From positions 173,246,317 to 173,310,316 of the forward strand of contig CM037584.1 in assembly GCA_021018995.1 (NCBI GenBank): a stretch of 64,000 nt of DNA, in the 5' to 3' direction. Source of the DNA: Chloranthus sessilifolius. Its lineage: Eukaryota; Streptophyta; Magnoliopsida; Chloranthales; Chloranthaceae. Of this stretch, positions 14,525-59,400 are shown in pieces (positions within the stretch are counted from its first letter, which is position 1; each line of letters begins with the position of its first letter). The notes beneath the pieces were generated by a model. The model was not told where the DNA came from and did not search any database. It saw nothing but the letters and a program-made list of their open reading frames with translations. The translations under genes and the position numbers were made by a program.

Positions 14525-14725
14525 CAATTTCGATCGCTCAAATTGCCAAATCGATCGATCGAATGACATCGACAAAGTATAGAGTTATGGAGTGAAATTT
14601 CAACCGATCGAATGGATTATTCAATCCACTGAAATTTTCAAGTCAATCGATCGAATGTCGACGGCGATTTTTCATAGAATTATGACATTTTGATCGATCA
14701 AATTTTTTTCGATCGATCGAAATCG
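14525..14725. promoter_or_regulatory. Palindrome array (TCGATCGATCGA core) upstream of LTR TATA box, element A 5' LTR
   Basis: Several copies of (T)CGATCGATCGA and half-sites such as CCGATCGAATGG lie in 200 bp, ending about 110 bp before TATATAAG at 14837. The 3' LTR carries the same arrangement at 32958-33220 and 33334-33341. Confidence 0.7.
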
Positions 14726-14836
14726 CGCTAGGTTGTTTAGTTAATTTAGGAGTTTAATTTCGAACTTATGTTTTGAGGGTTTATTTGTCTTTTATTTATT
14801 AATTGTCTTAGGGTTTTCTTTTATTGAAAGGACTCC

Positions 14837-14844
14837 TATATAAG
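14837..14844 (+). promoter_or_regulatory. TATA box of element A LTR
   Basis: TATATAAG sits inside the short inverted repeat AGGACTCC...GGTCCT and is conserved in the 3' LTR at 33334-33341. It follows the palindrome array and precedes the presumed transcription start near 14870. Confidence 0.7.
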
Positions 14845-15395
14845 GTCCTTAAAATTGAACAATGTAACTAGTTATTAATTATGAATGAAAAGCTTCTGCT
14901 TGTGTGTGCTTGAGATGAGCCTCTACGAAGAGTGAGTCTTCTTCCCAAGAAGGGTTTGGTGCGAAGCCAAGGGTGTGATGCCTGCCAATCAATCAATCAA
15001 TCTATCTATCTATCTTTTATCTTTACTTGTGTGGTCCTACAACCCCAAATTGACCATCATCCTTGTGAAATCCTAAACCCTAATTGTCCCTGGATCTTTG
15101 AATCGATCCGTATCAACAACCGTAGATCCCAACTGAGTTATTAAATCTTCCACACCAAATATTCAGAGGAAACCAGTGATCCCATCATTGAGTCGTGAGC
15201 GCCCTAATCTGAGAAAACCTAGAGTTCTATCTCTAAGATCGATCTATGCTGCAACCTAACGGATCTAGTGCCTGGACTAAACCTGAGGTGTTCGTTATAT
15301 TTTGTGAATTTTATTGTTTAATTTAATTCTAATTTAATTCCGGCAAAATCAATCATATCATTCACGTAGTTTAGGGAACCGTCCTGCGTCAGTTT

Positions 15396-15407
15396 TGGTA
15401 TCAGAGC
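15396..15407 (+). other. Primer-binding site, initiator Met tRNA (element A)
   Basis: TGGTATCAGAGC begins four bases after the LTR end CA at 15391, the usual initiator-Met primer site of plant Ty3/gypsy elements. Confidence 0.9.
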
Positions 15408-15532
15408 CCTAGGTTTCTAGGTTAGGGCATACTGTGTGATATTGCATTCATTGCACTTTAATTTTCATCACATATTATTTCAGTTTTGGCCAAAGTGTTC
15501 ATCTTGCATTCCATTCTAGAGCCCGTCACTTA

Positions 15533-16711
15533 GTGAACTGTATCACTATGGACATGAGTGGGATTGCCGAAGCTCTTAACGGCATGAGGGTTGATCTAAA
15601 ATCGATCAATGATCGAATGACTGCCTTAGAGACAGCCCAAAGGACTCTCGAAACATCCAATGAGAGGTTGTTAGACCGAGTTACTCGGTTAGACGAGGGT
15701 GATGAGTATTTTGAACCACCCCGTGAGCGTAATGGTCCACGTTTTGAACGAAGTGGCTACCAACATAATCGGAACCGGAACCATAGGTTTGATCATCATG
15801 GAGATGACTACGACCCGAAAGGGAGACTCCTCAAAAATGTCCGAGTTGAGTTCCCGACTTTTGATGGAAGACTAGACCCTCAGGTCTTCCTCGATTGGTT
15901 ATCCGATATGGACCAGGAGTGGTATGGCATGAGTGATGAAAGGTGTGTTAGACTTGCTAAGATAAAGCTCATAGGCCAAGCCCGACTCTTTTGGGTCAAC
16001 GTTGAATGCATCAGAACGAATGCGGGTTGTACTCCCATTACCCATTGGGAAGACATGAAGGTGCGACTTACAGAGAAATACGTTCCTTCTTCACACTACC
16101 ATCGTCTCCTTAACCAATGGCAAAATCTGCGCCAAGGTAGTATGCCCGTATCGGATTACATTGGCAAATTTGAAGAGTTCATGATGAGAGCCAAGGTATC
16201 CAAAAACCCTCAAGTCACTCTATCCAGATTTCGCATCGGATTGAGACTTGACCTGCAAAAAGAGTTAGTCTCCCACCCTGTTAAGACTCTCGCCGAGTGC
16301 TACACCGTCGTTCAAGACCTTGAACGATATTTAAAAATGATGGTGACTAGGCGATCTGATTTTCACCCCGGTCAATTCCGAACTGGCGAAGTGAAATCTA
16401 GTGCTGGAAACCCGCCTGTCAAATCCACGCAACCTACATCTACCAATGTGAGGTTTGACAAAGGTAGGGGTGTAGCCAGAGAATCCTCGAAGAGTGGGTC
16501 TCATGTTAAATGCTATAAATGTCAAGGATTGGGTCACTTTGCTCCCCAATGCCCCACAAGGGACCCACGAAGGAATCTCTTCATTGACGGAGAAGGAGAT
16601 GAAAGTGAAGGAGTTTATGAGGAAGAAGTCTTTGAGCCGAATGCCACACCTAGTGACGAGGAAGGTGATGACATGGGTCGTGCTCTAGTTGTGAGGTGTG
16701 CTTTTGCATAA
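15533..16711 (+). CDS. gag of chromovirus A
   Basis: An open frame of 392 residues. The retrotransposon gag core runs at about residues 105-270 (VEFPTFDGRLDPQVFLDWL, W-E-M-LTEKYVPSSHY, QGSMPVSDYIGKFEEF, LAECYTVVQDLERYL). A CCHC zinc knuckle follows near residue 330 (CYKCQGLGHFAPQC, spacing C-x2-C-x4-H-x4-C) and then an acidic tail. In this family the protein forms the capsid-like particle and the knuckle binds RNA. Protease sequence (IVDTGS) follows at about 16795. The ATG used here is the first in frame after the primer site; a second one lies at codon 6. Confidence 0.85.
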   Translation: MNCITMDMSGIAEALNGMRVDLKSINDRMTALETAQRTLETSNERLLDRVTRLDEGDEYFEPPRERNGPRFERSGYQHNRNRNHRFDHHGDDYDPKGRLLKNVRVEFPTFDGRLDPQVFLDWLSDMDQEWYGMSDERCVRLAKIKLIGQARLFWVNVECIRTNAGCTPITHWEDMKVRLTEKYVPSSHYHRLLNQWQNLRQGSMPVSDYIGKFEEFMMRAKVSKNPQVTLSRFRIGLRLDLQKELVSHPVKTLAECYTVVQDLERYLKMMVTRRSDFHPGQFRTGEVKSSAGNPPVKSTQPTSTNVRFDKGRGVARESSKSGSHVKCYKCQGLGHFAPQCPTRDPRRNLFIDGEGDESEGVYEEEVFEPNATPSDEEGDDMGRALVVRCAFA

Positions 16712-16850: not shown

Positions 16851-16855
16851 TAGGG

Positions 16856-19363
16856 TGTAATAACCCGAAAAAGCACGTCAAACAAGGACCTCGGGATCCG
16901 TGCCCGATTGGTCTTAGGTTTGACCATGAGATAGTTCATTGATGAACTTATGGTGAGATGAGCGAATGTGATGTGTGAACCAGTGTAGAAGAGTGGAGAG
17001 ATAGAGGAGTGTGTAGAGTGGCATACACTGATGAGTGTGTATGTGCTCCACACCGAGAAAAGAGATAAGATAAAAAGGGTTGAAAACCCTAACTTTCATG
17101 TTTTGGTGGTTGAGAGAAGTAAAGAAGAGAGAGAAAGAGAGAGGAGTAAGAGAGGAGTTATTGTGGGTGATTGGAAGAAGGATTCAAGCATTAAAGAGGC
17201 CGGATTTGTAACGAGAATCCGTTAGAAACCAAAGTCGAACCCTAGCCTTCCAACCCTAGATTTGAAATCAACTTGAGAGTTATTCAAGGTAAAATTTTTG
17301 TAAATAAGATGCATAGATTATAGGGGTTAAGTTGCAGTAAAATGTGGGTTAAATCATAGGATAATGGCTTAGAAAAATAGAAGAAAAAGTATGGAAAAAG
17401 ATTGGGAAGAACAGCTTGAAAGGGGCTGAATCTGACAATTTCGATTAATCGAAATTGGGTTTCGATTAATCGAAATTGGCCAGGAAGTTGAAGAGTCAGG
17501 GGACCCCGATTTTGATTAATCGGATTGGATTTCGATTAATCGACTTTGGATTTCGATTAATCGATTTGGGAATCGATTAATCGAGAAAGAACTATGGACC
17601 CGTGGGTTGGAGGAAATAACAGGAAAAATCGACTAATCGAAATGGGATTTCGATTAATCGATTTTAGTTTCGATGTCGATTTGGAATCAATTAATCGACT
17701 TGTGAAACTCGACTATTGACGTAAAATTACTTTGCGAAAGAAGGATTTGATTAATCGAAATTGGATTCGATTAATGAAAACTCGACTATTGAGCAGTAAA
17801 ATTGCTTTGCGAGAAGAAGGATTTGATTAATCGAATGAATCGAACTCAATCGAGAATGGACTTTGCGAAAAGGAGGATTTGATTAATCGAAATTGCTTCG
17901 ATTAATCGATATTGACCTTCGATTAATCGATTTTGGAAATCGATTAATCGAATCATTCGATTAATCGACTTTTGAATCGATTAATCAGTTGACTTTTGGT
18001 TTGACTTTAAGATTCTTGGGGGATCTTATGCCTTCTTTATTGCATCCTTTGTGATGTGTTTACTGTTATGTGGTACCATAGGTGATGCGTGTGGACTAGT
18101 GCACAAGGAGTCACGTGGGACCTTGATGCATTGATCAAGTGAAGACTTGAGGTAGGAACACCTTGAACATGTACTTTATTTTACAAGAGCATGTATGTAG
18201 TGATATCAATTCAATTCAAATGTTTTACTACTCAATGATTATGAAAAGTGTGCGTGTGTGACATTCATAAGAGAACTTAAATGAACCATCCCGGGGATGA
18301 TGAAGTGAAAAGTAAAGGCATCGGGTGTGATGCAGTGAATGGATACATCCAGGATGTATCCATGATTGAATCATGTGATGAGGCCTAAGCGATATAAGAT
18401 AGCACAATTACGGTGAATAACTATATGTAAGGCACCGATATTTTTTTATTTGAGGTTTGATAGGTTACCCCAGCGTGGCGGGATAACCACGACCCACGCG
18501 CAGGATATCCGTGGCCGTCTGTTGGCTAATCCAAACCGTAGCGGAGGCTTATCCGTCTGACAGTAAGCACACCCGAGGGTGTTGATGAGATATGAAACCA
18601 CCAATCCCGGGAAAGGGGCTTGGTACTATTGGTATTCGGGGAATACATTTAAAAGCTCTATATAGATGACGATGAAGGGTATCTCATGGGGCTCGATGCT
18701 ATATTGCTCGGGGATTATTTAAGTTGAAGTTTAAGTTTTGCTTTAGGCCTTCTCAAAGATCATTCTTGATTAACTAAAAGACATGAGTAATCTAGAATGG
18801 TGAAGTGTTTTTTAATTTTCATCAATAAATGCATAGACACATCATGCATGCATATCATAGAATACATGTGAGTTATATTTTATATGTTCAATTGTGTTTG
18901 TTCCTATTGAGCTAGGATGTAGCTCACCCTATAGACTATCGTCGCAGTCCACTACTAGCATGGCTTGAGGCAGAGAGGCGACCCGGTGGTCGGACCTTGC
19001 GGTAGGGAGTTAGAGCCACCTCCGGAGGACTTCTTAGAGGACTCTGTGCATGCGACTTTGAGGAGTTTTAGTTGGAGATTTATGCGGCTTGGTATGTCAA
19101 GCCGGTTTTTGATTAAACCTTGTGTATATGGATATCGAGTATTCTTTTGCGAACCATCCATGATGATGGTTATCATCGATGGTTCGGATCGGTTCTCCTT
19201 CATGCGAGGCATGAGGTAGAATCTTTGAGAAGTGTTTTATGTAGATTTAAATTCATGAAGTTGTTCTTATTTATTTTATGCTTGATATACCGGTGTTAGT
19301 GCATAGTTGAGGGCACGGTCAAGATGATCGTCTTGATGGCACGGGTTTGAATTGAAATCAACA
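16856..19363 (+). repeat. 5' LTR of element B
   Basis: About 2.5 kb, collinear with 26899-29495. It carries a dense array of TCGATTAATCGA and half-sites at 17441-17990. TATA-like CTATATAG lies far downstream at about 18658. The exact 3' boundary is blurred; I placed it at ACA just before the decayed primer site. Confidence 0.85.
17441..17990. promoter_or_regulatory. TCGATTAATCGA palindrome array, element B 5' LTR
   Basis: Around twenty copies or near-copies of the 12-mer TCGATTAATCGA lie in 550 bp, separated by short AT-rich spacers. The 3' LTR has the same array at 27459-28065. Confidence 0.85.
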
Positions 19364-24365: not shown

Positions 24366-24957
24366 AAACCGATTAATCAATTTCAAATCGACTAATCGAT
24401 TTGGAATTTCGATTAATCGATTTTTATTCGATTAATCGATGTATGCCGGATTTGAAATGAAAAAATTGAGTTAGAATATACATAAAATGAAATTTGATTG
24501 ATCGAATTATAATTTCGATTAATCGATTTTGTAATCGATTAATCGAATATTTTCGATTAATCGAGTTACTTAAAGGACTTGAGAGATATTAAAGTCAAAT
24601 GGACAATTTGATTAATCGAAGTGATTTGATTAATCGATTTTGAATTTCGATTAATCGAAATGGATTTTGATTAATCGAATATAAAATTTTAGAAAAAATT
24701 GAAGTTATAGCGATTTGATTAATCGAAACTAAATTGATTAATCGATTTTGGAATTCGATTAATCGAAATGGATTTTGATTAATCGGCGGCTTCCGATGAG
24801 CTCAAAATTTTAAAATTTTAAGCAGACGATTTCGATTAATCGAAATGGTTTGATGTCGAATTTGACTTTTCGATTAATCGATTTGAAATCGATTAATCGA
24901 TTTCTGGCACTAACCTAGTTTTAAATTTGATTAATCGAAAGCAATTTCGATTAATCG
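24366..24957. promoter_or_regulatory. TCGATTAATCGA array upstream of an internal TATA box, element B
   Basis: Roughly twenty copies or variants of TCGATTAATCGA fill about 600 bp directly after pol. The last copy ends a few bases before TATATATAAG at 24963. This is outside the LTRs, so it is not there because of LTR function. Its position is that of an upstream element for the accessory ORF that follows. Confidence 0.8.
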
Positions 24958-24962
24958 GAACC

Positions 24963-24972
24963 TATATATAAG
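24963..24972 (+). promoter_or_regulatory. TATA box for accessory ORF, element B
   Basis: TATATATAAG lies between the palindrome array and the first ATG of the accessory ORF at 25176. The ~200 bp leader is pyrimidine-rich, as in plant 5' UTRs. Confidence 0.6.
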
Positions 24973-25175: not shown

Positions 25176-26610
25176 ATGCCGCCCAAAACCCGTTTGTCTT
25201 GAAGAAGGCAACCTCCTCACTTCTAGGTTAGGCGTAAAACGCCACCACCACCTACCCCCCATGCGGTGAGGACTCCATCACCGTCGGAATCGGAGACCAC
25301 CTCCGGTTCGGCAGCGCATCTCTGTGTGAGTCTTCCCGAATCCACCCCATGCCACCACCACCCACCAGCGTGGAGCAACCAAGCAGTGGTGGGCTGCCAG
25401 ACCTTTGAGGTCGAATACACCATCGACCCTACCCTATTCACAAATCCCGATTCTGGCGAGACCCAATGGGCTCGAACTACCTAACTAGTGCGGACTCGGC
25501 AACCTTCTCAAACCAATCAGGTTCCTATTACCTAGATTGGTGAGATTATTCTACCAAGGGCTAACCAATGGCCCTAGCGGACGATTGTATCATAACCAAG
25601 ATCGAGGTCGTCTCTGTCGATCACTCGTCGACACATACATGAGGTGCTTGAATGCTACCTCGACTTTACCCGAGACTACCCTATTCCACCCTTTGAAAAG
25701 GAACCCCGTTTTGAAGAGGTCATGACTCGCATGACCAGCGGGAAGAAGAATTGCACGTCCATCAAGAGGTCGATCTTCCACCCTACATGTGGATGCTCGA
25801 CTCCATAATAAAATGCAACCTTTACCCCGATGCGCCACGACACGGGCGTGGATAAAGTGCAACATGCACTTCTGTGACATACATGGCCGATGGTTTGATG
25901 CTACCATGGTCATCCTTGAGGATCACGGTACATCAAGAACAAGCTCATGAAGGGCAACATGCGGCCCAGGAGAAGATGCCGTATGCTCGACTCATCTCGA
26001 GCATGTTGGAGTGTTACTCCGTGAGCCCTCTACACTATTTCACCTCACGAGGTGAGGGCTACGGATCAGCGTGAAGGCGTTCACAAAGTCTTCATGGACC
26101 CGTGCTTCTAACCAAGCGGACCCTACCGGCTCGGGTCCACTCCCGTCCCGGCGGCGGCCAGCCGCTGCCACCACCCCACCACCGGCCGGGACCCACACCC
26201 CCGCACACAGCCGTCCGTGGGAAGGGCTACTTCCCAGTGCAACACCCACACCACCCACACTCACACGCCCGCGACTCCTACCTCATCCTACTGGCCGTGC
26301 CGCTCCATCCGTCCTACCATAGAGGGCGTGTTGGCGAATGGGCGAATAACGAGAGGATGAGCAGGAGGTGATTTCCTCATGTTTCACACCCTCCGGTTCA
26401 TCTACCCCACACCTACATGGATATCTTGGCCCTTGAAGAAGAATGGACCCGGCCTGACCTTTCATCAGGCCGGTCTTTGGGGCTTGATTACATGGTGGTG
26501 CCTCTACATCCCACAGCCGTTCCACCTCGCCTTGTATGACCTCCGACTACCAGGATACCACCATCGCCATACCATGTCCAAGCGGCTACCACACAGCACC
26601 ACCACCTTAC
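25176..26610 (+). pseudogene. Accessory ORF of element B ('plant transposon protein'-like), broken
   Basis: The region starts with ATG in good context (CCCAATATGCCGCCC; MPPKTRLS) and is GC-richer than the rest of B. Pieces resemble the accessory ORF of element C and the 'putative plant transposon protein' domain (Pfam PF20167 as I remember it). One is VRLFYQGLTN, and another is a NLYP-DAPRHGRG and ATMVIL stretch in the relative order of C's VRLFYQNMAW, NLCPRGHVSERTGDRV and NVPRII. The role is unknown. The region is broken several times. The far end (26100-26330) is proline-rich in one frame and may not be coding. Confidence 0.5.
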
Positions 26611-45357: not shown

Positions 45358-45632
45358 TGGGGTCGGTTAATCGACCCTTGGAGGGCGATGCAACGACCCT
45401 TTGGTGGTCGATTAATCGGTGTCGATGCCGACACCCAAAAAAAATATATATATATATATATTTTTAAGCAATGAGGGTCGATTAATCGTTCCCTAAAGGT
45501 CGATGCATCGACCCTTTGGGGGTCGATTAATCGACAGAGGGGTCGATTCATCGACCTCCTACAAATTTTTTTTTTTTTTTTTTTTTCCGCAAACAGTGGG
45601 TCGATCAATCGAGTATAACCCTCGATTAATCG
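45358..45632. promoter_or_regulatory. Palindrome array upstream of ORF3 (C left unit)
   Basis: TCGATTAATCGA, TCGATGCATCGA and TCGATTCATCGA variants alternate, with a TA dinucleotide run and a long T tract. The right unit has the same array at 53663-53955 in cleaner form. Confidence 0.75.
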
Positions 45633-45806
45633 ACACCATCTTGGCAGAGAGTTGAAAATTTGTGAAAATTAACTTTTTAAAAGTGCGTTCCAACTACTCT
45701 AAAGGCAACCGGTAATTTGCAAAATTTTGACAATCCCACACAGATTAGAAAACACACTTTTTCATTGATAAAGACGATGATTACATGGACACTTCTGATT
45801 TGACTC

Positions 45807-46954: not shown

Positions 46955-47072
46955 GATTGCACTGTCGGAATGTCGGAGGCAGTCAGAAAAACAAACTCAA
47001 TGAAAAAAAATAGTGAGACTGCTCCATTTAAATAGGCGCAAAGGCGCCCCTCGGGACGGACACAATCAAAAT

Positions 47073-47880
47073 AATCGATTAATCGACCAAAAGTGTCGAT
47101 TAATCGACTCTATTGAAAAGAGGCGCGTCAGAAGTCCCCACGCATGTAAAACCCGCAACGTCTTTACGTGAAAAGACGCAACGTACGGAATGGAAAAGTC
47201 GATTAATCGACGCACTTACTCGATTAATCGACAGAAATCAAGGCAAACAAAAACCAAAAACGCACGTCCCGAAGTAAAAGTCGATTAATCGATCCATAAA
47301 GAGTCGATTAATCGACACCAAATTAAAACAAAATTGACAGAATTTTAAAACGGCACAAGTTTCAAAAAAGTGTAGTCGATGCATCGACTCAAGGAGTCGA
47401 TTAATCGACGAAAGAAAAGCCAAAATCCACATAAATGCAGTCGCCTTGAAAAAGGACACTGCATTAAATACTCTCGATTAATCGACCAAAAAGTGGTCGA
47501 TTAATCGAGCACAAAGTGATCGATTAATCGAGCACAAAGTGATCGATGCATCGACCATGAGGGGTCGATGCATCGATTCTCAAAATTTTTTTTTTTTTTT
47601 TTTTTTTTTCTTCAAACATAGGGTCGATTAATCGAACCCTAAAGGTCGATGCATCGACCCTTTGGGGGTCGATTAATCGACAGAGGGGTCGATTCATCGA
47701 CCTCCTAAAAATTTATTTTTTTTTATTTTTTATTTTTTTTTCATCGAAAAGAAATTAACCAAAAATGCAGACTGCATTGAAAAAGAAAACAGTCATTATG
47801 ATTGTCGATCAATCGACTACAAGTCGATTAATCGAGGGAGATTCGATTAATCGACATACCGCGTCGATTAATCGAGGAAA
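47073..47880. promoter_or_regulatory. Palindrome array upstream of ORF2 (C left unit)
   Basis: More than fifteen TCGATTAATCGA and several TCGATGCATCGA copies lie in 800 bp, interspersed with T tracts of 20 or more bases (e.g. 47587-47610). Poly(dA:dT) tracts exclude nucleosomes in general, which would suit a promoter. Confidence 0.8.
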
Positions 47881-48169
47881 AAAATAATTTTTTTTTTTTT
47901 AAGAAAAAATGCGAAATTAATCTACAAGGTGTAAATTCATTCCGAGTCCACCAGGATCCCAAATCTTCATGAAAAATTTTCTAAGCAGGATCAGCGATTT
48001 ATTTAATCGTCTCGGTATTTCTCTTTTTAAGGACTTAGTTACACCCCCATGGTGTGCCCAAGTGTCACCATTATGATCCATTTCTACCACAGATTGACAT
48101 TCCCAAAATCACACTTGATTCAAACCCATGAATCTTTTTTTTCTAAGATTCTGTTGATTATCTATGTAT

Positions 48170-48910
48170 TCAACGAATGGACAATGATTGAAATTCCTCT
48201 TTCTTCCCTAAATCGAATTCACACTCATCGAAAAAAGTTATGTTTCCCTTATCAGGTGTTGTAAGGGTGACATTTTCTTTCTCTTTCATCTCAATTTGAT
48301 TCTCAACTCCCTCCTCGACATAAGTATCGTTCCATTCCATTTCCTCTTCTCCTTGCACTTGCACTACCTCAACGCTCGTTATGCCATTCTCAAGCATAGT
48401 GACCAATTGGTCATCCTCATATTTTTGAACAAAATCAGATGAGTCCTCTTGAAGATGTTCTTTATTCTGATCGGTATCAATGAGGGACTCCTCTATTTCA
48501 ACTTTCCTTTGTAAGTACTCGATTATCTGACTAACTTGAGATTGTATCCTAGAAATTCTTTGAGTATTGGTGTGCACCAAACCTTTTAAATATTCTAAGG
48601 AGTAAGAAGAATTTTGGGCTGGTTCATATGAGTTTGTGTCTTGAAAGTATTGAGTTTGCTGTGAAAACTCATAAGGAAATTTGTTGGGATAAGAATTTTG
48701 ATCATTGTACGGCATCATATCACACATTAGAGGTTGATTAAAACCCCACATGTCATTAGATTGACTCTGCCAATCATGAGTGTTCCAAACCGGATTTAGT
48801 TGGACTTGTTCAGGGTAATAATTTGAGTTATTCAAGGGACACATAGGTGAAATGTGCATCGAATTTTCACAAATAGCACATGATTTTAGATTGAATCCAT
48901 GCATTGACAT
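48170..48910 (-). CDS. C left unit, ORF1: N-terminal zinc knuckle, Gln/Asn-rich gag-like
   Basis: 246 residues. Close to the N-terminus is CAICENSMHISPMC, an exact C-x2-C-x4-H-x4-C zinc knuckle, the RNA-binding motif of gag. A Gln/Asn/Tyr-rich part follows (to about residue 105), then an Arg/Gln helix (LVHTNTQRISRIQSQVSQI) and an acidic C-terminus. The usual gag capsid core is missing, so it looks like a rearranged or shortened gag. The ATG lies 52 bases after a canonical TATA box (TATAAATA, 48962-48969) and a palindrome cluster at 48970-49045. Confidence 0.6.
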   Translation of the reverse strand: MSMHGFNLKSCAICENSMHISPMCPLNNSNYYPEQVQLNPVWNTHDWQSQSNDMWGFNQPLMCDMMPYNDQNSYPNKFPYEFSQQTQYFQDTNSYEPAQNSSYSLEYLKGLVHTNTQRISRIQSQVSQIIEYLQRKVEIEESLIDTDQNKEHLQEDSSDFVQKYEDDQLVTMLENGITSVEVVQVQGEEEMEWNDTYVEEGVENQIEMKEKENVTLTTPDKGNITFFDECEFDLGKKEEFQSLSIR

Positions 48911-48961
48911 GATTTCACCAATAACAAAAGCTTTTTTTTAAATTTTTTTTTTTTTTTTTTT

Positions 48962-49045
48962 TATTTATAAAAATCGATTAATCGAGTAACACTCGATCAA
49001 TCGAGGAAAGCTCGATGCATCGACAGTGTGGGTCGATGCATCAAC
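48962..49045 (-). promoter_or_regulatory. TATA box plus palindrome cluster upstream of ORF1 (C left unit)
   Basis: Read on the minus strand, two TCGATGCATCGA-type sites, one TCGATCAATCGA and one TCGATTAATCGA come first. TTTTTATAAATAA follows directly, and the ORF1 start comes 52 bases later. The right unit repeats this at 57319-57400. Confidence 0.75.
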
Positions 49046-49200
49046 CTCCAAAAATTTTTTTTTTTTATTTTTTTATTTTTTTAAATTTGAAATTTTCGGA
49101 AATTTTTTTTTTTTTTTTTTTTTAAGCAGAAATACTATTTTAATCCTCGAAAATTCCTAAAATTTACTGTCTACCAAAAATTCAGATTTTCTAATTTTGA

Positions 49201-49218
49201 TCCCCGGCAACGGCGCCA
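49201..49218 (-). other. Primer-binding site for tRNA-Asp (C left unit)
   Basis: The plus strand reads TCCCCGGCAACGGCGCCA, the 3' end of plant tRNA-Asp(GTC) including CCA. So the minus-strand element has the complementary primer site six bases inside its 5' LTR (the middle one). It is not a tRNA gene: only the acceptor and T-arm end is present. Confidence 0.9.
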
Positions 49219-49224
49219 AAAACT

Positions 49225-51007
49225 TGATGTGATGTTTTTAATGTATGTTTTACTTTAAATGCACGAATCGGTTTGTATATAGTGGAGTGCGATGCGAGAT
49301 CGTTCCCACGAGGACTAATGTTGAAATACCTAAAAGAGACAAGCAATTCTAGAAATCTATTAAGATCTAACAGTATTCTACCAGTTTTATGATTTAAGCG
49401 GTTGATGGTAATTAATGACTATAAACTAAAATTCAATTGATGATTCACAAATAAAAGTGAAGATGATGATAAAGATGAAGATACTAAATCCTCCCATCTT
49501 TGGTCCGTTCTTCCTATAATATAAATCTAAGGATTAAATTATGAGATATTTCATTGGTAACAAACATCTTTTATGGAAGATCAATGGTCAACACCCTAAT
49601 AGGTTCCATGTTGCATCCTCATTAGGACTTAGATGATTTTCATATATAGATCACGGGATCAAAGTGCGGCTGACACGCATGATCTCAGGTTCAAATAAAA
49701 ACCATCCCCAAAGTGGGTGAAAATTCCAACAAGAATACCACTTACAAATTTGAAATCAAGGGCATGGCTCGGCACACTTTATTCAGATTATGAATTATTT
49801 AAGATAAAATTACCATTACAGAACCAAGATCCAGGGCATGGCTCGGCACACTCGATCCCATAACATAATCGTAATTAGATCCACACGATAAAAACAAAAA
49901 GACCATAACAATGATTGGGTAAAATTACCGTCACAGATCTGAGATCCCGGGCATGACTCGGCACACGCGATCCCGGTTAGTGGCGGGGATTTTATCCGTT
50001 CATGATAGCACAACAACCATAAAAATAAAATCTCATATTTTAATCCCTAATTTATATTAGTAAAAGTACATCCCTCGGATGGGAATCATTAGATCCCCAT
50101 CTCTATAAATTTAGCCACACATATTGAAAATAAATGACATAAATAAATAAAGACGGGAAAATAACATTAATTAAAATTACCTCAAACTTCCAAATAAATT
50201 ACCTCGATCCACACGTATGATAATCTTCAGAAACGAAATAAATGCAGGAATAAACTTTGAACAAAATTTATGAACTGAATACTGAAAAATTAAAGAACAA
50301 AGCTCTCAAAAAGAAATAATAAAACTTCCTATTTCTATGAAAAATAATGGCTAAAAACTAAAACTAAAAAAACTCTAATTCTCATCTCCTACGTTATTCT
50401 AATGCTGAAAAGATATCTAATCTCTATTCCCCTTTTTCCCGAAGTGTTTGAGTCTTTAAATAGAACCCGTCGCGCAAAGGTATCCTAAATCGACTTTTTA
50501 TGGTCGATTAATCGACTAATAATTTGTCGATGCATCGACGAGAAAATCCTCAAAATCACGTTTCGTGTCGAATCGTGTCGACTCAATTTCTGGCTCGATT
50601 AATCGAAATTCGATGCATCGACCCCAGAAATCCGTGAAAATCAGCATTTCTTGTGGTTCAGACACTGCTTCAGTATTTCAGCCATAACTTTCTGTCCCGA
50701 ACTCGGATTGAGACGATTCTTGCGCCGTTGGAAAGCTGACGAAAAGATCTACAACTTTCATGTTTTGACAATTTTGTAATTCGGCCGTCTTGAAGGTCCA
50801 AATTTAGCCCCAAGTCGCACCAAGTTCTTGATTACCCGAAATTGCAGTGCTTTGGCATTGTATTCAGAATTCTTGCGCTGTTTTCTATACTTGGCTCATA
50901 TTTACCTGAAACACTTCAAATCTAATCAATCTTATCAGATAGCCTTCATCGGACAGCTAAATATAGGTATTTAAGGGTGAAATATCCTCATTTTTCAGTA
51001 CTCATCA
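49225..51007 (-). repeat. Middle LTR of C (shared by both units)
   Basis: 1783 bp. It is bounded on the left by a primer site and on the right by a polypurine tract instead of target duplications, so it serves as 5' LTR of the left unit and 3' LTR of the right unit. Confidence 0.92.
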
Positions 51008-51021
51008 TACCCCCAAACCTA
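51008..51021 (-). other. Polypurine tract, C right unit
   Basis: Same TAGGTTTGGGGGTA string as at 42720-42733, abutting the middle LTR. Confidence 0.8.
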
Positions 51022-53029
51022 CACTTTGCTAGTCCTCGAGCAAAGCAAACTAAAGAAAATAAATGCCACTTTCGTAGGGAACACGATTGCACTTAGCATG
51101 TGCAACAAGCCTTTAAACCCCTAGGTGATCCTAGTGGAGGAGTTGTGTCCTGAGGGTTTACTGAAGTTACCCACAAACTTCAATATATTTTGAAATCATC
51201 GATAAAATTGAGTTTTCAAAACATGATTTTGATAACATATATACCATTCAAAACAAAATCATTAATCAATTCAACATGAATTCTCAATTTTAAATAACAA
51301 TGTTATACCAATCATACTAATATCCATTCAAATTAGTCCAATGCTCAAATCGTTAGATAGCTCATCCATTCATGCCTAAACGTGAAGTGTGTGCATAACC
51401 AAACCAAAATTCATTCATCTCAGAACGAGTTCAAACGGAAGACCGTTGGATCTGTTGTTTTGACTCAATCCTCACTTTAGGTATACTCTCAAAATATAAA
51501 GACACCGATAGTGGATAAGTTTTCACACATATGTGAGAGGTCAATACAAAGCAAATAAAAAGGTCTCACATGATAAATGAAACACGATGCAATCAATGAA
51601 CAAAAATAAATCTCATAAGAAGATACTTGTATATCCTAAGCATGTCATATCAAGTGTCATAAGTATCACATATTTACTCTCCACAAGGCGCTTACTAATG
51701 CAAGATCGATCATGAAGGTCTTTTAGGGTTGTAATGGGGCTCGTGAAAGGGTAAGAAAGAATTGGAAGTTGGGATTCAAAGTTTCGAGAAATTGAAAAGA
51801 AACAACTTTTGATTTTTTCTATTTCTTTTCTTTTCTACTCTCTCACTATTTTTCTCAATTTTTTCTATTTTTCTCAACTCACTTTTTCTTTTGAATTTCC
51901 TTTTCTTGAAGCACCTCAGATTTTTCATTACTTTTCACAATTTTCTTTTTCTTTTTCTCTCCCCTTTTTCTTTTTATTTTTGCCATACACTCTCAGTAAA
52001 CACCACAACTCAGTATCTCTCCACTTACTCTCTTTTCGTTCACTCTCATCCCTCGTTCCTAATTTCTCAGAAATAAGAAGGGTAAAGCTGAATTTTCAGA
52101 AATGGTGAAGGGTTAAAGGTTAACGTGGCTTATCAAAGAATGTATAAAGGTAAATTTTTCAATAGGCTCAAAGGGGCACTAGAAAGATAAATTTATTTGA
52201 GGTGGGGCATTTTAAGCACAAACGAGCCAAAGATGGCCTTCAATCATGTCCTTAAAAGATAGTAACTTTGCCTATTTGTCTTGAGTAGATATACAGTACA
52301 TTCTAACATAATGATATGAATTTGATTTCATGCAAAGTCACAAGTCAAAATGAAGTGTATGAGATTATGCAAAATAAATCGTACTCAAAGAAAACTCCGA
52401 GTTTATATATTCACTCATCAATGACGGGAAATTAGCTCTAAAGCTCACTGGGTTTAGTCTCCACTGAAATCCTAAGATTCAACATTCAAAACAGTTCATC
52501 GATTTCTAAGTCTTAGCTTGGTATCAGTGTAAAAAGTCTAAGCATGAATATCAAAAATTATCCACAACATATCACATTAAGCTTCATCATCTTAGATACA
52601 AGTAATCAAAATATGACACTATTATTCTCAAAATTAAATTCACATGCATCATCAACTAAAGTTTGAAAACAATCGTAAAATAATGTGTATGATGACTTCA
52701 AAAATAAAATTTTTTTTTTTTTTTTCAAATAAAATAAATAAATGACGTAAAATAATTAACCATACCCCCAAACCTAAAGATGACAATGTCCTCATTGACT
52801 GAAAGAAGTAGCGCACCCCCAAACCTGTATGAAAAAAGTACCTCAACACAAAGATCAGGTGCAGAGAATATATGCATCAAATCGGAACATGACAAAAAAT
52901 ATATTGAAGGGAATATGGTTACACTATTTAGGGAAAGAAAAACAACCTAAACTAAACAAAACAAAAAGGAAAGAAAAAACTAATAAATCCTAAAACATAA
53001 ATCCTAAACTACACATGAATCCAACTCTG

Positions 53030-53392
53030 TTAATCATTGGTAGGCGGACCCATCCACCTCGGGTCACTTAAATTGATATTCTTAGGCACAGGGAACAATT
53101 TCTCCCACAGATCAAGGGGAAATTGATGAGACACCGCCGATTGTAAGGATGGAGGTGGGGAGGCGAAAGTAGGAGATGAAGATGGGAGAGACGGTGACGG
53201 CATCACATCAATTATCTCGATATCAGTATGGATGCACGGTGTAGGAGATGTGGAGCGTTTTACCTTTTTTCGAGATGGTTCTCCCCAGTAAGGAATGATC
53301 ATCGGATCGAGGTCGATGATTTCAACATTGTTTGGCACAAAAGGGACCGTCCGATGAGAGCGGCGCTCCCGCTTTTTAGCAGTCTCCTCCAT
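53030..53392 (-). CDS. C right unit, ORF3: basic/Ser-Pro-rich protein
   Basis: Same 120-residue product as 44745-45107, starting MEETAKKRERR at 53392. A TATA-like CTATATTTT lies at 53488-53496, about 96 bases upstream, then the palindrome array 53663-53955. The frame is also open upstream of this ATG to 53530. I chose the ATG at 53392 because both units share it and the sequence upstream differs between units. Confidence 0.5.
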   Translation of the reverse strand: MEETAKKRERRSHRTVPFVPNNVEIIDLDPMIIPYWGEPSRKKVKRSTSPTPCIHTDIEIIDVMPSPSLPSSSPTFASPPPSLQSAVSHQFPLDLWEKLFPVPKNINLSDPRWMGPPTND

Positions 53393-53662
53393 CTTTGATA
53401 CGGGCTCTGGTAAGATATAATCGTCGGGCCATAAGAAAGAATGTGCAGAGTTAATGAAAAGTGAGCCTAAAGGTGAATATAAAGGGAAAAATATAGAGTT
53501 GGAGTAGGAGTGGAAAGAGGTGTCCTGCAAAAAGAAACAATGAAAAGTGTGGCAGTACGTCTAAGGGAGTCCATATACGTGAGAAAAGTGGCAAATCAGA
53601 GTTCCACTAGGAGTGCCGCCGAAAGAAAAAAAACAAAAAAACAAAAAAAACAGAAAGCGGTG

Positions 53663-53955
53663 GGGTCGATTAATCGACCCTTGAAGGTCGATGCATCGAC
53701 CCTTTGGTGGTCGATTAATCGACAGTGGGGTCGATGCATCGACACCCAAAAAAAAAATATATATATATATATATATTTTTTAAGCAACAGAGGGTCGATT
53801 AATCGATCCCTAAAGGTCGATGCATCGACCCTTTGGGGGTCGATTAATCGACAGAGGGGTCGATTCATCGACCTCCTACAAATTTTTTTTTTTTTTTTTT
53901 TTTCCGCAAACAGTGGGTCGATCAATCGAGTATAACCCTCGATTAATCGACACCA
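53663..53955. promoter_or_regulatory. Palindrome array upstream of ORF3 (C right unit)
   Basis: Four or more TCGATTAATCGA, three TCGATGCATCGA, one TCGATTCATCGA and one TCGATCAATCGA copies, with GGGTCGA/TCGACCC extensions that lengthen several palindromes to 16 bp or more. Confidence 0.8.
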
Positions 53956-54123
53956 TCTTGGCAGAGAGTTGAAAATTTGTGAAAATTAACTTTTTAAAAG
54001 TGCGTTCCAACTACTCTAAAGGCAACCGGTAATTTGCAAAATTTTGACAATCCCACACAGATTAGAAAACACACTTTTTCATTGATAAAGACGATGATTA
54101 CATGGACACTTCTGATTTGACTC

Positions 54124-55294
54124 CTAAAATAAACAGCCTAAACAAAAGAAAGAAAAAACACACAAAACGAAAAATCCTAATCCTAGACTAATCAAACTAA
54201 TCATCTCCATCCTCCTCGGCTTGGCGGGCCCTGGCGCGCATCTCATCATAACTATCAGGCCACATGCGCTGCCCGATTTGATGGAGGAAGGAACGATCAT
54301 AGTGGCTACAGAGGGCACCATGGTGTCGTCACGCTCTTGTAACGAGGTAATTTGGGCTTGGAGCGAGCCAAGCGACACACCCTCCTCGGGTCCTTGATCA
54401 GGTGCATGTTGGTCATCCTGACGGACGCGGCGGCGCTGGCGTGGTGGAGCCGGTTGGGCCGGTGCATCAGCAGGGCCATCAGGGACATTTCCCAAGAGAC
54501 GCATACTGCGGTTCCACTGGGTTGCACCATAACGATAGAATGCAAGGTCCCCGATATCATCATCCCGGTAGAACAGGAAACGAAGAAAATTGAACTTCAT
54601 AACATAATGGGGAAACCACCGGCTTCACCAAAGGTTTAGTGAGTTCGTCATGGCATCGCCACATGCCATCATGAATAATCCTGGGCACGTTGATCCATGA
54701 ATTGCGGTGGGCCCCATAAAGTGCTTGAACCCGATCACCGGTGCGCTCAGAAACGTGGCCACGGGGACAAAGATTGCTACTGACCACACTATCCCAAAAC
54801 AAAAGCGGGCGCGGCAACGCCGATCGCCTAGTGGCGATCCCAGAAGAAAATATGCCGCGGCACATCTCGTTGATTATATCCTCCTGAGACTCGTCGAGTT
54901 CCTCACCCAGAATGTGATTGTGAGGGCGCGACGAAACATTAAAGACCTCCGCAATGGTGTGCGGAAAAATCGGGCGCGACCACCCATCAATTGTAACAGT
55001 GAAGTGGGCGGCGACTTGATTCTCGATGGAGGCGGGCACCCATGCCATATTCTGATAGAATAACCGAACAACGCGTTCGGACACTTTGATCACGGGTGGA
55101 GTGAGGAGAAAATGGGCATTGAGAGCCATCGCATAGGCGAGGGAAACGGCGCAGATAGGCAGTGCTTGAAAAGCCGCGAGATCAAAAACATATTGAACAC
55201 AGTCGTGTCGGGTCGTGCGACCACTTGGCTGATCACGTGGATGACCAGCAGGGCGTTGTACAAGTCTTTGCGGCGCGGCAGAGGTCGAAGCCAT
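54124..55294 (-). pseudogene. C right unit, ORF2: 'plant transposon protein'-like accessory ORF
   Basis: It begins MASTSAAPQRLVQR at 55294. Family-like landmarks are VIKVSERVVRLFYQNMAW, FTVTIDGWSRPIFPHTIAE, LLFWDSVVSSNLCPRGHVSE and RTGDRVQALYG, then WINVPRII. They fit the order of the 'putative plant transposon protein' domain (PF20167 as I recall it; W-YFVSSRLLPT-HVS-VTRDRA--LYA and NVGRII). The function of that domain is unknown. The C-terminal part is Pro/Arg-rich (PAPPRQRRRVRQDD) followed by a short coiled coil (SLQAQITSLQE). A few breaks are present. A TATA-like CTATTTAAAT is at 55366-55375, 72 bases before the ATG. Confidence 0.6.
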
Positions 55295-55365
55295 GATTGC
55301 ACTGTCGGAATGTCGGAGGCAGTCAGAAAAACAAACTCAATGAAAAAAAATAGTGAGACTGCTCC

Positions 55366-56222
55366 ATTTAAATAGGCGCAAAGGCGCCCCTCGGGACGGA
55401 CACAATCAAAATAATCGATTAATCGACCAAAAGTGTCGATTAATCGACTCTATTGAAAAGAGGCGCGTCAGAAGTCCCGACGCATGTAAAACACGCAACG
55501 TCTTTAAGTGAAAAGACGCAACGTACGGAATGGAAAAGTCGATTAATCGACGCACTTACTCGATTAATCGACAGAAATCAAGGCAAACAAAAACCAAAAA
55601 CGCACGTCCCGAAGTAAAAGTCGATTAATCGATCCATAAAGAGTCGATTAATCGACACCAAATTAAAACAAAATTGACAGAATTTTAAAACGGCACAAGT
55701 TTCAAAAAAGTGTAGTCGATGCATCGACTCAAGGAGTCGATTAATCGACGAAAGAAAAGCCAAAATCCACATAAATGCAGTCGCCTTGAAAAAGGACACT
55801 GCATTAAATACTCTCGATTAATCGACCAAAAAGTGGTCGATTAATCGAGCACAAAGTGATCGATTAATCGAGCACAAAGTGATCGATGCATCGACCATGA
55901 GGGGTCGATGCATCGATTCTCAAAATTTTTTTTTTTTTTTTTTTTTTTTCTTCAAACATAGGGTCGATTAATCGAACCCTAAAGGTCGATGCATCGACCC
56001 TTTGGGGGTCGATTAATCGACAGAGGGGTCGATTCATCGACCTCCTAAAAATTTATTTTTTTTTATTTTTTATTTTTTTTTCATCGAAAAGAAATTAACC
56101 AAAAATGCAGACTGCATTGAAAAAGAAAACAGTCATTATGATTGTCGATCAATCGACTACAAGGAGTCGATTAATCGAGGGGGAGGTTCGATTAATCGAC
56201 ATACACTGTCGATTAATCGAGG
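55366..56222 (-). promoter_or_regulatory. TATA-like box and palindrome array upstream of ORF2 (C right unit)
   Basis: The TATA-like box lies at 55366-55375 (minus strand). The array of TCGATTAATCGA and TCGATGCATCGA runs from 55410 to 56222, with T tracts at 55926-55949 and 56048-56082. Confidence 0.75.
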
Positions 56223-56338
56223 AAGAAAAATAATTTTTTTTTTTTTTTTTTTTTTTTTAAGAAAAAATGCGAAATTAATCTACAAGGTGTAAATTCATTC
56301 CGAGTCCACCAGGATCCCAAATCTTCATGAAAAATTTT

Positions 56339-57267
56339 CTAAGGTGATCGTGATTTATTTAATCGTCTCGGTATTTCTCTTTTTAAGGACTTAGTTACAC
56401 CCCCATGGTGTGCCCAAGTGTCACCATTATGATCCATTTCTACCCTGTACTTGACATTCCCAAAATCACACTTCAGATTCAAACCCATGAATCTTTTTTC
56501 GGCATTCTGTTGATTATCTATGTATTCAACGAATGGACAACAGATTTGAAATTCCTCTTTCTTCCCTAAATCGAATTCACACTCATCGAAAAAAGTTATG
56601 TTTCCCTTATCAGGTGTTGTAAGGGTGACATTTTCTTTCTCTTTCATCTCAATTTGATTCTCAACTCCCTCCTCGACATAAGTATCGTTCCATTCCATTT
56701 CCTCTTCTCCTTGCACTTGCACTACCTCAACGCTCGTTATGCCATTCTCAAGCATAGTGACCAATTGGTCATCCTCATATTTTTGAACAAAATCAGATGA
56801 GTCCTCTTGAAGATGTTCTTTATTCTGATCGGTATCAATGAGGGACTCCTCTATTTCAACTTTCCTTTGTAAGTACTCGATTATCTGACTAACTTGAGAT
56901 TGTATCCTAGAAATTCTTTGAGTATTGGTGTGCACCAAACCTTTTAAATATTCTAAGGAGTAAGAAGAATTTTAATTTGGTTCATATGAGTTTGTGTCTT
57001 GAAAGTATTGAGTTCTTGTGAAAACTCATAAGGAAATTTGTTGGGATAAGAATTTTGATCATTGTACGGCATCATATCACACATTAGAGGTTGATTAAAA
57101 CCCCACATGTCATTAGATTGACTCTGCCAGTCATGAGTGTTCCAAACCGGATTTAGTTGGACTTGTTCAGGGTAATAATTTGAGTTATTCAAGGGACACA
57201 TAGGTGAAATGTGCATCGAATTTTCACAAATAGCACATGATTTTAGATTGAATCCATGCATTGACAT
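56339..57267 (-). pseudogene. C right unit, ORF1: zinc-knuckle, gag-like
   Basis: Right-unit counterpart of 48170-48910. It has the same C-x2-C-x4-H-x4-C knuckle near the N-terminus, a Gln/Asn-rich middle and an acidic end. This copy continues further at its C-terminal side (YRVEMDHNGDTWAHHGG) and is not one open frame. The start lies 52 bases downstream of TATAAATA (57319-57326). Confidence 0.6.
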
Positions 57268-57318
57268 GATTTCACCAATAACAAAAGCTTTTTTTTAAAT
57301 TTTTTTTTTTTTTTTTTT

Positions 57319-57400
57319 TATTTATAAAAATCGATTAATCGAGTAACACTCGATCAATCGAGGAAAGCTCGATGCATCGACAGTGTGGGTCGATGCATCA
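57319..57400 (-). promoter_or_regulatory. TATA box plus palindrome cluster upstream of ORF1 (C right unit)
   Basis: Same arrangement as at 48962-49045: palindromes at 57330-57400, then TATAAATA on the minus strand, then the ORF1 ATG at 57267. Confidence 0.75.
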
Positions 57401-57558
57401 ACCTCCAAAAATATTTTTTTTTTATTTTTTTATTTTTTTAAATTTGAAATTTTCGGAAATTTTTTTTTTTTTTTTTTTTTTAAGCAGAAATACTATTTTA
57501 ATCCTCGAAAATTCCTAAAATTTACTGTCTACCAAAAATTCAGATTTTCTAAATTTAA

Positions 57559-57576
57559 TCCCCGGCAACGGCGCCA
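57559..57576 (-). other. Primer-binding site for tRNA-Asp (C right unit)
   Basis: Same TCCCCGGCAACGGCGCCA string as in the left unit, six bases from the right LTR start at 57583. Confidence 0.9.
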
Positions 57577-57582
57577 AAAACT

Positions 57583-59400
57583 TGATGTGATATTTTTAAT
57601 GTATGTTTTACTCGCAAGTGCACGAATCGGTTTGTATATAGTGGGTGCGGAGTACGAGATCGTTCCCACGAGGACTAATGTTGAAATACCTAAAAGAGAC
57701 AAGCAATTCTAGAAATCTATTAAGATCTAACAGTATTCTACCAGTTTTATGATTTAAGCGGTTGATGGTAATTAATGACTACAAACTAAAATTCAATTGA
57801 TGATTCACAAATAAAAGTGAAGATGATGATAAAGATGAAGATACTAAATCCTCCCATCTTTGGTCCGTTCTTCCTATAATATAAATCTAAGGATTAAATT
57901 ATGAGATATTTCATTGGTAACAAACATCTTTTATGGAAGATCAATGGTCAACACCCTAATAGGTTCCATGTTGCATCCCTGCCATTAGGACTTAGATGAT
58001 TTTCATATATAGATCTGGGATCAAGGGTACGGCTAGACACGCATGATCTCAGGTTCAAATAAAAACCATCCCCAAAGTGGGTGAAAATTCCAACAAGAAT
58101 ACCACTTACAAATTTGAAATCAAGGGCATGGCTCGGCACACTTTATTCAGATTATGGATTATTTAAGATAAAATTACCATTACAGAACCAAGATCCAGGG
58201 CATGGCTCGGCACACTCGATCCCAGAACATAATCGTAATTAGATCCACACGATAAAAACAAAAAGACCATAACAATGATTGGGTAAAATTACCGTCACAG
58301 ATCTGAGATCCCGGGCATGACTCGGCACACGCGATCCCGGTTAGTGGCTGGGATTTTATCCGTTCATGATAGCACAACAACCATAAAAATAAAATCTCAT
58401 ATTTTAATCCCTAATTTATATTAGTAAAAGTACATCCCTCGGATGGGAATCATTAGATCCCCATCTCTATAAATTTAGCCACACATATTGAAAATAAATG
58501 ACATAAATAAATAAAGACGGGAAAATAACATTAATTAAAATTACCTCAAACTTCCAAATAAATTACCTCGATCCACACGTATGATAATCTTCAGAAACGA
58601 AATAAATGCAGGAATAAACTTTGAACAAAATTTATGAACTGAATACTGAAAAATTAAAGAACAAAGCTCTCAAAAAGAAATAATAAAACTTCCTATTTCT
58701 ATGAAAAATAATGGCTAAAAACTAAGAACACTAAAAACTAAAACTAAAAAAACTCTAATTCTCATCTCCTACGTTATTCTAATGCTGAAAAGATATCTAA
58801 TCTCTATTCCCCTTTTTCCCGAAGTGTTTGAGTCTTTAAATAGAACCCGTCGCGCAAAGGTATCCTAAACCGACTTTTTATGGTCGATTAATCGACTAAT
58901 GGCTGTCGATGCATCGAGCCGACAGAAAATCCTCAAAATCACGTTTCCAATGTCAGAATCGTGTCAGACTCAATTTCTGGCTCGATTAATCGACCTGTAG
59001 GGTCGATGCATCGACCCCAAAAATCTGTGAAAATCAACATTTCTTGTGGTTCAGACACTGCTTCAGTATTTCGGCCATAACTTTCTGTCCCGAACTCGGA
59101 TTGAGACGATTCTTGCGCCGTTGGAAAGCTGACGAAAAGATCTACAACTTTCATGTTTTGACAATTTTGTAATTCGGCCGTCTTGAAGGTCCAAATTTAG
59201 CTGCAAGTCGCACCAAGTTCTTGATTACCCGAAATTGCAGTGTGTTGGCATTATATTCAGAATTCTTGCACTATTTTCTATACTTGGCTCATATTTACCT
59301 GAAACACTTCAAATCTAATCAATCTTATCAGATAGCCTTCATCGGACAGCTAAATATAGGTATTTAAGGGTGAAATATCCTCATTTTTCAGTACTCATCA
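57583..59400 (-). repeat. Right LTR of C (outer 5' LTR)
   Basis: 1818 bp, ending CTCATCA next to the ATTAC duplication. A palindrome cluster (58885-59012) precedes a TATA-like CTATTTAAAG (58834-58843) on the minus strand. Confidence 0.92.

Follow-up and report, generated by a model that had tools for sequence, protein, structure and literature searches.

The closest described counterpart of the structures reported here is found in the Sireviruses, where palindromic repeats termed RM boxes are located in the long terminal repeat (LTR) upstream of the TATA box, and also before the envelope-like gene (Bousios et al., 2010; PMC2829016). Of these boxes, 12 of 13 have a CGG-CCG core, with ACAATCGATTGT of Tnd-1 as the exception; the report, which compared Ty1/copia elements, presents them as a feature of Sireviruses, and no test of their function is presented in the available part of that report (PMC2829016). 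In the VANDAL transposons of Arabidopsis, the motifs targeted by VANC proteins are described, in the parts of the papers accessible to us, as short, dense, family-specific, non-coding and evolving by repeat formation (PMC5735166; also PMC10398659), and the VANC6 motif was also found in one unrelated element (PMC5735166). In this study, we analyzed a 64-kb window, that is, the whole stretch C1:173246317-173310316 of a genome of 2.17 Gb in 32 contigs, in which three LTR retrotransposons, here called A, B, and C, carry arrays of the palindrome TCGAT-NN-ATCGA. The gene content and the element types point to a plant origin.

The most probable reading, at about 0.68, is that a DNA-binding factor acting as a dimer uses these arrays as clustered sites close to promoters, the binding being suggested by the sequence. 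The observations behind this conclusion are the symmetry and spacing of the sites, their proximity to TATA-like boxes, the use of one palindrome (hereafter, a code) in both the LTR and an internal promoter of three families, and the presence of two codes at a homologous place.

Abundance and distribution of the palindromes

In the window, TCGATNNATCGA has 118 exact copies, whereas 0.10 were expected from dinucleotide shuffles and the largest count in a shuffle was 2, so a chance origin of the arrays was rejected. The commonest palindromic 12-mer of the window, TCGATTAATCGA, has 83 copies (0.008 expected). Each 12-mer consists of two inverted 5-bp half-sites flanking a 2-bp center. Genome-wide, the controls were the same word read backwards and a composition-matched palindrome, TAGCTNNAGCTA. 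There are 335,892 exact copies of TCGATNNATCGA, compared with 967 of the reversed word and 1,519 of TAGCTNNAGCTA, a palindrome of the same letters whose own backwards control, ATCGANNTCGAT, occurs 15,321 times. The observation made in an earlier sequence-only reading of this DNA is real and extends beyond the window, and each array named there was located where stated or a few bases away. The words TCAATNNATTGA, TCGCTNNAGCGA, and ACGGANNTCCGT have 91,218, 38,638, and 13,976 copies (5,727, 1,045, and 3,450 for their backwards controls, respectively), and TCAAT-NN-ATTGA is 16-fold above its backwards control.

Among successive gaps of up to 130 bp at the places listed first, distances of 18-23 bp account for 42 of 84 gaps of TCGAT sites, 26 of 62 of TCAAT sites, and 10 of 18 of ACGGA sites, while distances of 12-17 bp account for 0, 4, and 0, respectively. 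The longer gaps show a weak 10.5-bp phase signal (R 0.33, p ~0.01, uncorrected for the 14 periods tried and for related copies), which is similar at 11 bp.

Further palindromes were found in arrays in twenty sampled 10-kb stretches of the genome, where the other repeats were non-palindromic. The array palindrome is TCGCT-CG-AGCGA at locus L024, CTTTT-CG-AAAAG-like at L025, CGATACGTATCG at L020, TCGGCCGA at L029, and CGCGAGGA-like at L031, and TCGAT forms were seen at L018, L021, and L022. TCGAT-NN-ATCGA, taken in the sequence-only reading for a single design, is one of several palindromes. At L018:6400-9000, dense AT-rich palindromes (TAGTATACTA, AGTATATACT, and ATACTAGTAT) extend over about 2.5 kb without clear 21-bp spacing.

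The arrays are associated with an extra open reading frame (ORF) of the kind of the Pfam family PF20167 (Transposase_32). A genome search for this family gave 150 scored matches of 13,856 candidates, and 20 of the 150 were read upstream. With an array defined as four or more copies of the same palindromic 8-mer in a 400-bp span, 16 of these 20 loci have an array upstream of the gene, compared with 7 among 120 arbitrary windows, each 1.6 kb long and taken from the twenty 10-kb stretches, which start at round coordinates (Fisher p ~2e-12, a value that ignores the kinship of the loci). Mirror 8-mers counted in the same way form arrays in 0/20 of the PF20167 loci and 0/120 of the arbitrary windows. 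Of the loci that miss, L038, L039, and L053 have, by eye, degenerate GGTYRACC arrays, and L033 has a Ty1/copia reverse transcriptase directly upstream and no array. At L033:1-1487, the RVT_2 frame (618-1487) overlaps the PF20167 frame (1-726) by about 100 bases. This reverse transcriptase (RVT_2) was seen for L033 and L035 only, the other Ty1/copia-like loci being assigned by likeness. The curated cut-off of PF20167 is 45 bits, which is exceeded by a piece of ORF2 of element C (51.3), L040 (56.1), L041 (53.6), and L039 (57.1); the chromovirus pieces of L072 (32.3), L024 (20.4), and L073 (21.8 and 13.8) and a piece of L034 (33.9) are below it. The ACGGA and ACGGT loci, with CGG-CCG-like cores, are probably members of the known Sirevirus RM-box kind.

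These controls bear on the idea that slippage expanded short repeats in non-coding gaps into functionless tandem arrays. In many Retand elements, tandem repeats peculiar to each family do occupy the space between pol and the 3' LTR, their origin and function not being established in the accessible text (PMC11963269). However, slippage does not favor dyad symmetry, and mirror arrays were absent from both samples. Per position, the sequence flanking exact C sites has an information content of 0.02-0.69 bits (the motif being invariant because only exact matches were chosen), and that flanking B sites up to 1.3 bits; the flanks are thus little conserved in C. The position of the arrays and often their TATA distance are kept. 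Moreover, unlike palindromes occupy the same slot of B-lineage loci. A simple tandem repeat was rejected on the C flanks and the negative mirror-word control, and neutral expansion is highly improbable.

Site pairs were also found at one locus of a viral collection and at three loci of a bacterial and archaeal collection, which by their titles belong to an actinobacterium, an elusimicrobium, and an archaeon. In the viral contig (L001:5021-5694), where the context appears to be unrelated, there are three exact TCGATTAATCGA sites, the starts of two of which are separated by 25 bp, and inspection of this locus gave no sign of a link to the plant arrays. Our results confirm that the arrays are real, not due to chance, and widespread.

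Position of the arrays relative to promoters

TATA-like boxes were called by one consensus, and the distance was taken from the last array site to the box start. Of the 35 arrays scored, 20 are followed by such a box at no more than 60 bp from the last site, compared with 2.4 expected for random placement in the same stretches; the 35 arrays were hand-chosen, and those of the same family are not independent. In LTRs, an array precedes a TATA-like box in C, in A at a longer distance, and in two Ty1/copia-like families, and the same order is found before internal genes in C and in the chromoviruses B and L024. The TCGCT-type loci have a box within 60 bp downstream in 11 of 12 cases, at 9 bp in 7 of those. 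The distance is nearly equal in the LTR (41 bp) and before ORF2 (40 bp) of C, and in the ACGGA family it is 14 bp in the LTR and, for 3 of the 12 extra-ORF promoters, 13-14 bp. One palindrome occurs in both the LTR and the internal promoter of three families, namely C, the ACGGA family (L034 and L042, with 2 exact LTR copies), and the GGTNNACC family (L039, by eye, and L044, with 4 copies). The features of the window are given below.

14525-14725, plus strand: array in the 5' LTR of A, degenerate TCGATCGATCGA-type palindromes, 2 exact
14837-14844, plus strand: box TATATAAG in the 5' LTR of A, 116 bp after the last site
15440-16711, plus strand: gag ORF of A (PF03732, zf-CCHC)
32214-32915, plus strand: integrase C-terminus and chromodomain of A (PF24626, PF00385)
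32958-33196, plus strand: 3' LTR of A, same array as in the 5' LTR, 3 exact, TATA-like box 137 bp beyond
16858-19355, plus strand: 5' LTR of B, ends approximate
17441-17968, plus strand: array of TCGATTAATCGA in the 5' LTR of B, 10 exact
24366-24958, plus strand: internal array of TCGATTAATCGA in B, lying after integrase and before the extra ORF region, 10 exact and 9 one-mismatch copies
24963-24972, plus strand: box TATATATAAG of B, directly after the internal array
25176-26600, plus strand: extra ORF region of B, frame-broken, ends approximate
27462-28061, plus strand: array of TCGATTAATCGA in the 3' LTR of B, 18 exact
58884-59014, minus strand: LTR array of C, 2 TA-centered and 2 GC-centered sites, with CTATTTAAAG 41 bp further in the element sense
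57331-57401, minus strand: array upstream of ORF1 of C, with TATAAATA 4 bp further
56342-57294, minus strand: ORF1 of C, in two pieces, no Pfam match at E 0.01
55415-56220, minus strand: array upstream of ORF2 of C, 21 exact, with CTATTTAAAT 40 bp further
54127-55336, minus strand: ORF2 of C, of which piece 54563-55336 matches PF20167 at 51.3 bits
53666-53950, minus strand: array upstream of ORF3 of C, 10 exact
53033-53560, minus strand: ORF3 of C, no Pfam match at E 0.01
50504-50621, minus strand: array in the middle LTR of C
45363-49044, minus strand: second unit of C, with arrays before ORF1 (48974-49044), ORF2 (47075-47875), and ORF3 (45363-45633)
42203-42333, minus strand: array in the third LTR of C
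3009-3278, minus strand: array of a different palindrome, TCAAT-NN-ATTGA (TCAATCTATTGA / TCAATCGATTGA), with six copies, within a region resembling an LTR at about 1880-3750 (by eye)

Retroviral dimerization uses palindromes, and each palindrome here can pair with every other copy, which is why the arrays might instead be dimerization or packaging signals in genomic RNA. The internal arrays would be transcribed, as would the B LTR arrays if they are in the leader. However, the 5' end of the transcript would lack any array located before the LTR TATA box, and an RNA role predicts neither the arrays before three C genes nor the nearly equal TATA distances of the C LTR and ORF2. This is the least probable of the explanations weighed here.

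Structure of the three elements

Element A, with LTRs near 14378-15392 and 32818-33926, is by its predicted domains a chromovirus. Its arrays have the CG-centered form only, with few exact copies, and its pol abuts the 3' LTR, leaving no space there for an extra ORF. The LTRs of B (near 16858-19355 and 26900-29475) are 90% identical, and B appears to be nested inside A. RVT_1 is matched by pieces of both elements, and the chromodomain was found in A and in L024, a relative of B. The extra ORF region of B is distantly similar to PF20167 proteins (a tblastn search with an L024 piece gave 25775-26020 at E 1e-5), and Pfam searches with ten pieces of it gave no PF20167 match and nothing relevant. 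In the B LTR, a ATAAAAAGG word, an AG-rich stretch, and a splice-donor-like word (CAAG|GTAAAA) were noted by eye at 17072-17300, ahead of the array, which may for that reason lie in a leader intron.

Element C has the layout LTR-internal-LTR-internal-LTR on the minus strand, with LTRs at 40922-42719, 49225-51007, and 57583-59400. Its units are 96% identical, and its sites are counted twice because there are two internal units. Nine C pieces gave no match to a pol domain in Pfam, and a comparison of the ORF2 piece by sequence with solved structures found none similar. At L041, ORF2 is 83% identical to that of C over 216 amino acids, the palindromes are identical in kind, and an integrase/RNase H frame (rve, Integrase_H2C2, RT_RNaseH) lies upstream; C therefore appears to be related to an Athila-like family while lacking pol itself. 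Primer-site words are located at 15396 (A) and 19368 (B), and on the minus strand at 49201 and 57559 (C); we take them to be of the Met (A and B) and Asp (C) kinds. The Athila-like name presumably holds for C on account of its primer site together with PF20167. According to the available text of a study of sunflower, PF20167 is tied to Athila (PMC11728184). The arrays thus lie in unrelated retrotransposon lineages with different pol types. Common descent of the whole elements, which the sequence-only reading had called unlikely as far as recent descent goes, was rejected on these pol types.

The two C units (40922-59400) differ in patches, stretches of 300 columns without mismatches lying beside others rich in mismatches and small gaps. 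This looks like uneven assembly polishing, and the frame breaks of B and C may in part be artefactual. The TCAAT-NN-ATTGA palindrome of 3009-3278 is comparable to ACAATCGATTGT of Tnd-1, as given in the accessible part of PMC2829016. In the flank, at 6526-7704, there is a pentatricopeptide-repeat frame (PF13041).

Change of code in the chromoviruses

L024 and B align over 4.8 kb of gag-pol (73%), and both have, after the end of integrase, an array, a TATA-like box, and an extra ORF in this order. The same slot holds different palindromes, TCGCT-CG-AGCGA in L024 and TCGAT-TA-ATCGA in B. A search with the L024 integrase gave 150 scored matches of 37,633 candidates, 16 of which were read 800 bp downstream. 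All 16 of these B-lineage loci have a palindromic array downstream of integrase, TCGCT-type in 12 and TCGAT-type in 4, and 15 of them reach four exact copies of the 8-mer core, L070 having three.

The integrase does not separate the two codes. Its identity to L024 is 85-86% in two TCGCT-type loci and 87-88% in two TCGAT-type loci; for integrase nucleotides the values are 77% and 81%, and 73% for B. In contrast, the extra ORF of L024 is 57-78% identical, by piece, to that of L073, which has the same palindrome (62.9% over 89 amino acids, 77-78% over 128-133, and 56.7% over 67), and 31-37% identical to that of the TCGAT-type locus L072. Because the identity of the extra ORF follows the palindrome and that of the integrase does not, the code seems to go with the extra ORF within the chromovirus lineage, as judged from a small sample and from neighboring features.

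This association does not extend to other lineages. The extra-ORF protein of L072 scores 95 bits to that of a TCGCT-type chromovirus and 35-39 bits to those of TCGAT-type Athila-like elements, so the proposal of a half-site that tracks the extra-ORF protein in every lineage was rejected. As these proteins group by lineage, TCGAT was either gained more than once or serves a host factor. The sequence-only reading had suggested that the 12-mer was gained repeatedly or spread by recombination. For the first, TCGAT in the chromoviruses and in C looks independent, because the extra-ORF protein follows lineage and not half-site; for the second, array and extra ORF vary jointly within the chromovirus lineage, as would be expected from recombination or from co-divergence.

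Proposed mechanism and candidate factors

In the mechanism that we propose, a dimer would bind each 12-mer through its two inverted half-sites, and several dimers could occupy one face of the DNA because neighboring sites are often about two helical turns apart. The bound factor would most likely recruit the promoter or keep it open, since the array sits upstream of a TATA-like box, and in some families the LTR and extra-gene promoters might be switched together. The code would turn over while the layout is kept, because families carry different half-sites, A, B, and C sharing TCGAT. Dimer binding, activation or anti-silencing, and the origin of the factor are what we infer from these patterns.

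Several results weigh against promoter-proximal binding sites. Without three late additions (L021 second array, L022, and L024, which were added after the box had been seen), the count within 60 bp is 17 of 32, and L018, L020, the first array of L021, L025, L029, L031, L038, L039, L053, and window positions 3009-3278 were left out of the scoring. Among ACGGA promoters, 7 of 12 have no TATA box by consensus within 60 bp; at L055, one of the 16 positive PF20167 loci, the array lies within an LTR-like stretch instead of preceding the gene and has no TATA-like box nearby, and at L044 the box is 106 bp off. The LTR of L024 itself shows no array, and the 4 kb beyond the L040 gene (L043) gave no GCCTC palindrome. 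Furthermore, 12 of the 20 sampled PF20167 loci belong to one ACGGA family, and across lineages the extra-ORF proteins group by element lineage rather than half-site. In the window, the boxes of the A LTR arrays are 116-137 bp off, and the nearest ones to the B LTR arrays (17441-17968 and 27462-28061) are 672-710 bp downstream. The latter arrays, absent from the sequence-only reading, break the uniform order of array and box claimed there, and 'upstream of the TATA box' is not valid for every array because of them, although an upstream dyad element near a TATA box is supported by the counts over the 35 scored arrays and the TCGCT loci. The box proposed for C ORF3, CTATATTTT, is weak, and no TATA box by consensus follows that array.

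If the arrays are binding sites, the factor may come from the host. Dimeric host transcription factors, as paralogues with differing half-sites, might bind the arrays, the elements having converged on a factor active in the tissue of transposition; we consider this version of the explanation plausible, at odds somewhat short of even. TCGAT is common to two chromoviruses (A and B) and the Athila-like C, and the extra-ORF protein of the TCGAT-type chromovirus is no closer to that of C than to that of a chromovirus with another code. Sirevirus motifs compared with a cis-element database gave mainly stress-related sites in the accessible part of the report (Bousios et al., 2010; PMC2829016). However, a single genome holds several codes, and chromoviruses with integrase pieces 85-88% identical to that of L024 have either of two codes in the same slot; a stable host factor alone does not predict code turnover.

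Alternatively, the extra ORF (PF20167-like) may encode the binder of its own family's palindromes, by analogy with VANC. An array stands before the extra ORF in three lineages, and in chromoviruses the code follows this ORF (57-78% for L073 vs 31-37% for L072) and not the integrase (85-86% vs 87-88%). Nevertheless, only one extra ORF per palindrome group was compared, the array adjoins the extra ORF so that one recombination breakpoint would move both without a functional link, and TCGAT-type B is farther from L024 in the integrase piece (73% of nucleotides) than those loci are (77-81%). In addition, the half-site does not follow the protein across lineages, Pfam searches on the extra ORFs gave no known DNA-binding domain, and A has no room for an extra ORF between pol and 3' LTR. 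Such self-recognition is therefore a tentative possibility. In a broader form, three lineages (Ty1/copia Sirevirus-like, Athila-like, and chromovirus) would share a movable module whose PF20167-kind product binds its own palindromes at its own promoter and, in some families, in the LTR; code and protein would co-diverge, in the manner of VANC, giving parallel private circuits of activation or anti-silencing. We regard this form as unlikely. Between the two sources, host factors have slightly better odds than an element-encoded protein, because the extra-ORF proteins group by lineage and not by half-site.

Comparison with known systems

In our literature search, which reached little of the subscription literature, no report of such arrays in Ty3/gypsy elements was found, and TCGATTAATCGA and CGATTAATCG as text queries returned no plant-transposon paper. 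The Tnt1 BI/BII boxes and the ONSEN heat-shock elements are reportedly repeated or palindromic cis elements of the U3 region that drive LTR transcription, in few copies; we know of no matching internal promoter in them.

Among other extra-gene retrotransposons, Retand resembles the elements described here in that both repeats and additional genes follow pol and precede the 3' LTR, with an extra protein suspected to bind DNA (PMC11963269), and Grande in having an extra gene, gene23, with its own internal promoter (in PMC7264820). In contrast, the extra ORFs of Retand TRP28 and Grande are antisense, the Retand domain is PF04195, and the repeats are not described as palindromes in the accessible parts of these papers. 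In sunflower, Athila has an extra ORF partly similar to PF20167, and Tekay also has an extra ORF; that of Tekay lies 5' of gag-pol, and the available text describes no promoter arrays (PMC11728184).

The parallel with VANDAL and VANC, which the sequence-only reading had raised, holds for layout and turnover (PMC5735166), with dense family-specific arrays in non-coding parts, although TCGAT is common to A, B, and C. However, VANDAL are Mu-like DNA transposons, whereas the window elements are LTR retrotransposons; the VANC21 motifs lie in one orientation according to the accessible text (PMC5735166), whereas palindromes are found here; and the binding protein is proven there, whereas here code and extra ORF are linked, the extra-ORF product being one candidate beside host factors. 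The palindromic RM box is the closer precedent. Like RM boxes, the C LTRs have 4 sites and a TATA-like box at 41 bp (A at 116-137 bp), with further copies before an extra gene in C (ORF2) and B (internal array). Unlike them, the B LTR arrays are 672-710 bp from a TATA-like box, and A, B, and C use TCGAT half-sites instead of a CGG-CCG core and are Ty3/gypsy elements or relatives without a Ty1/copia Sirevirus pol.

The Ty1/copia-like loci of this genome fit the described Sirevirus RM boxes; what is new here is that Ty3/gypsy elements show this layout too, that the half-sites are more varied, and that the code changes while its place is retained. If the arrays are an on-switch, many transposon promoters could be readable from sequence, one code alone having 335,892 exact sites, and several codes per genome with two codes at one place make the sharing or escape of control by retrotransposons directly testable. 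Such a switch would link the palindromic boxes of Sireviruses, for which the accessible text names no binding factor, with the anti-silencing targets of VANDAL.

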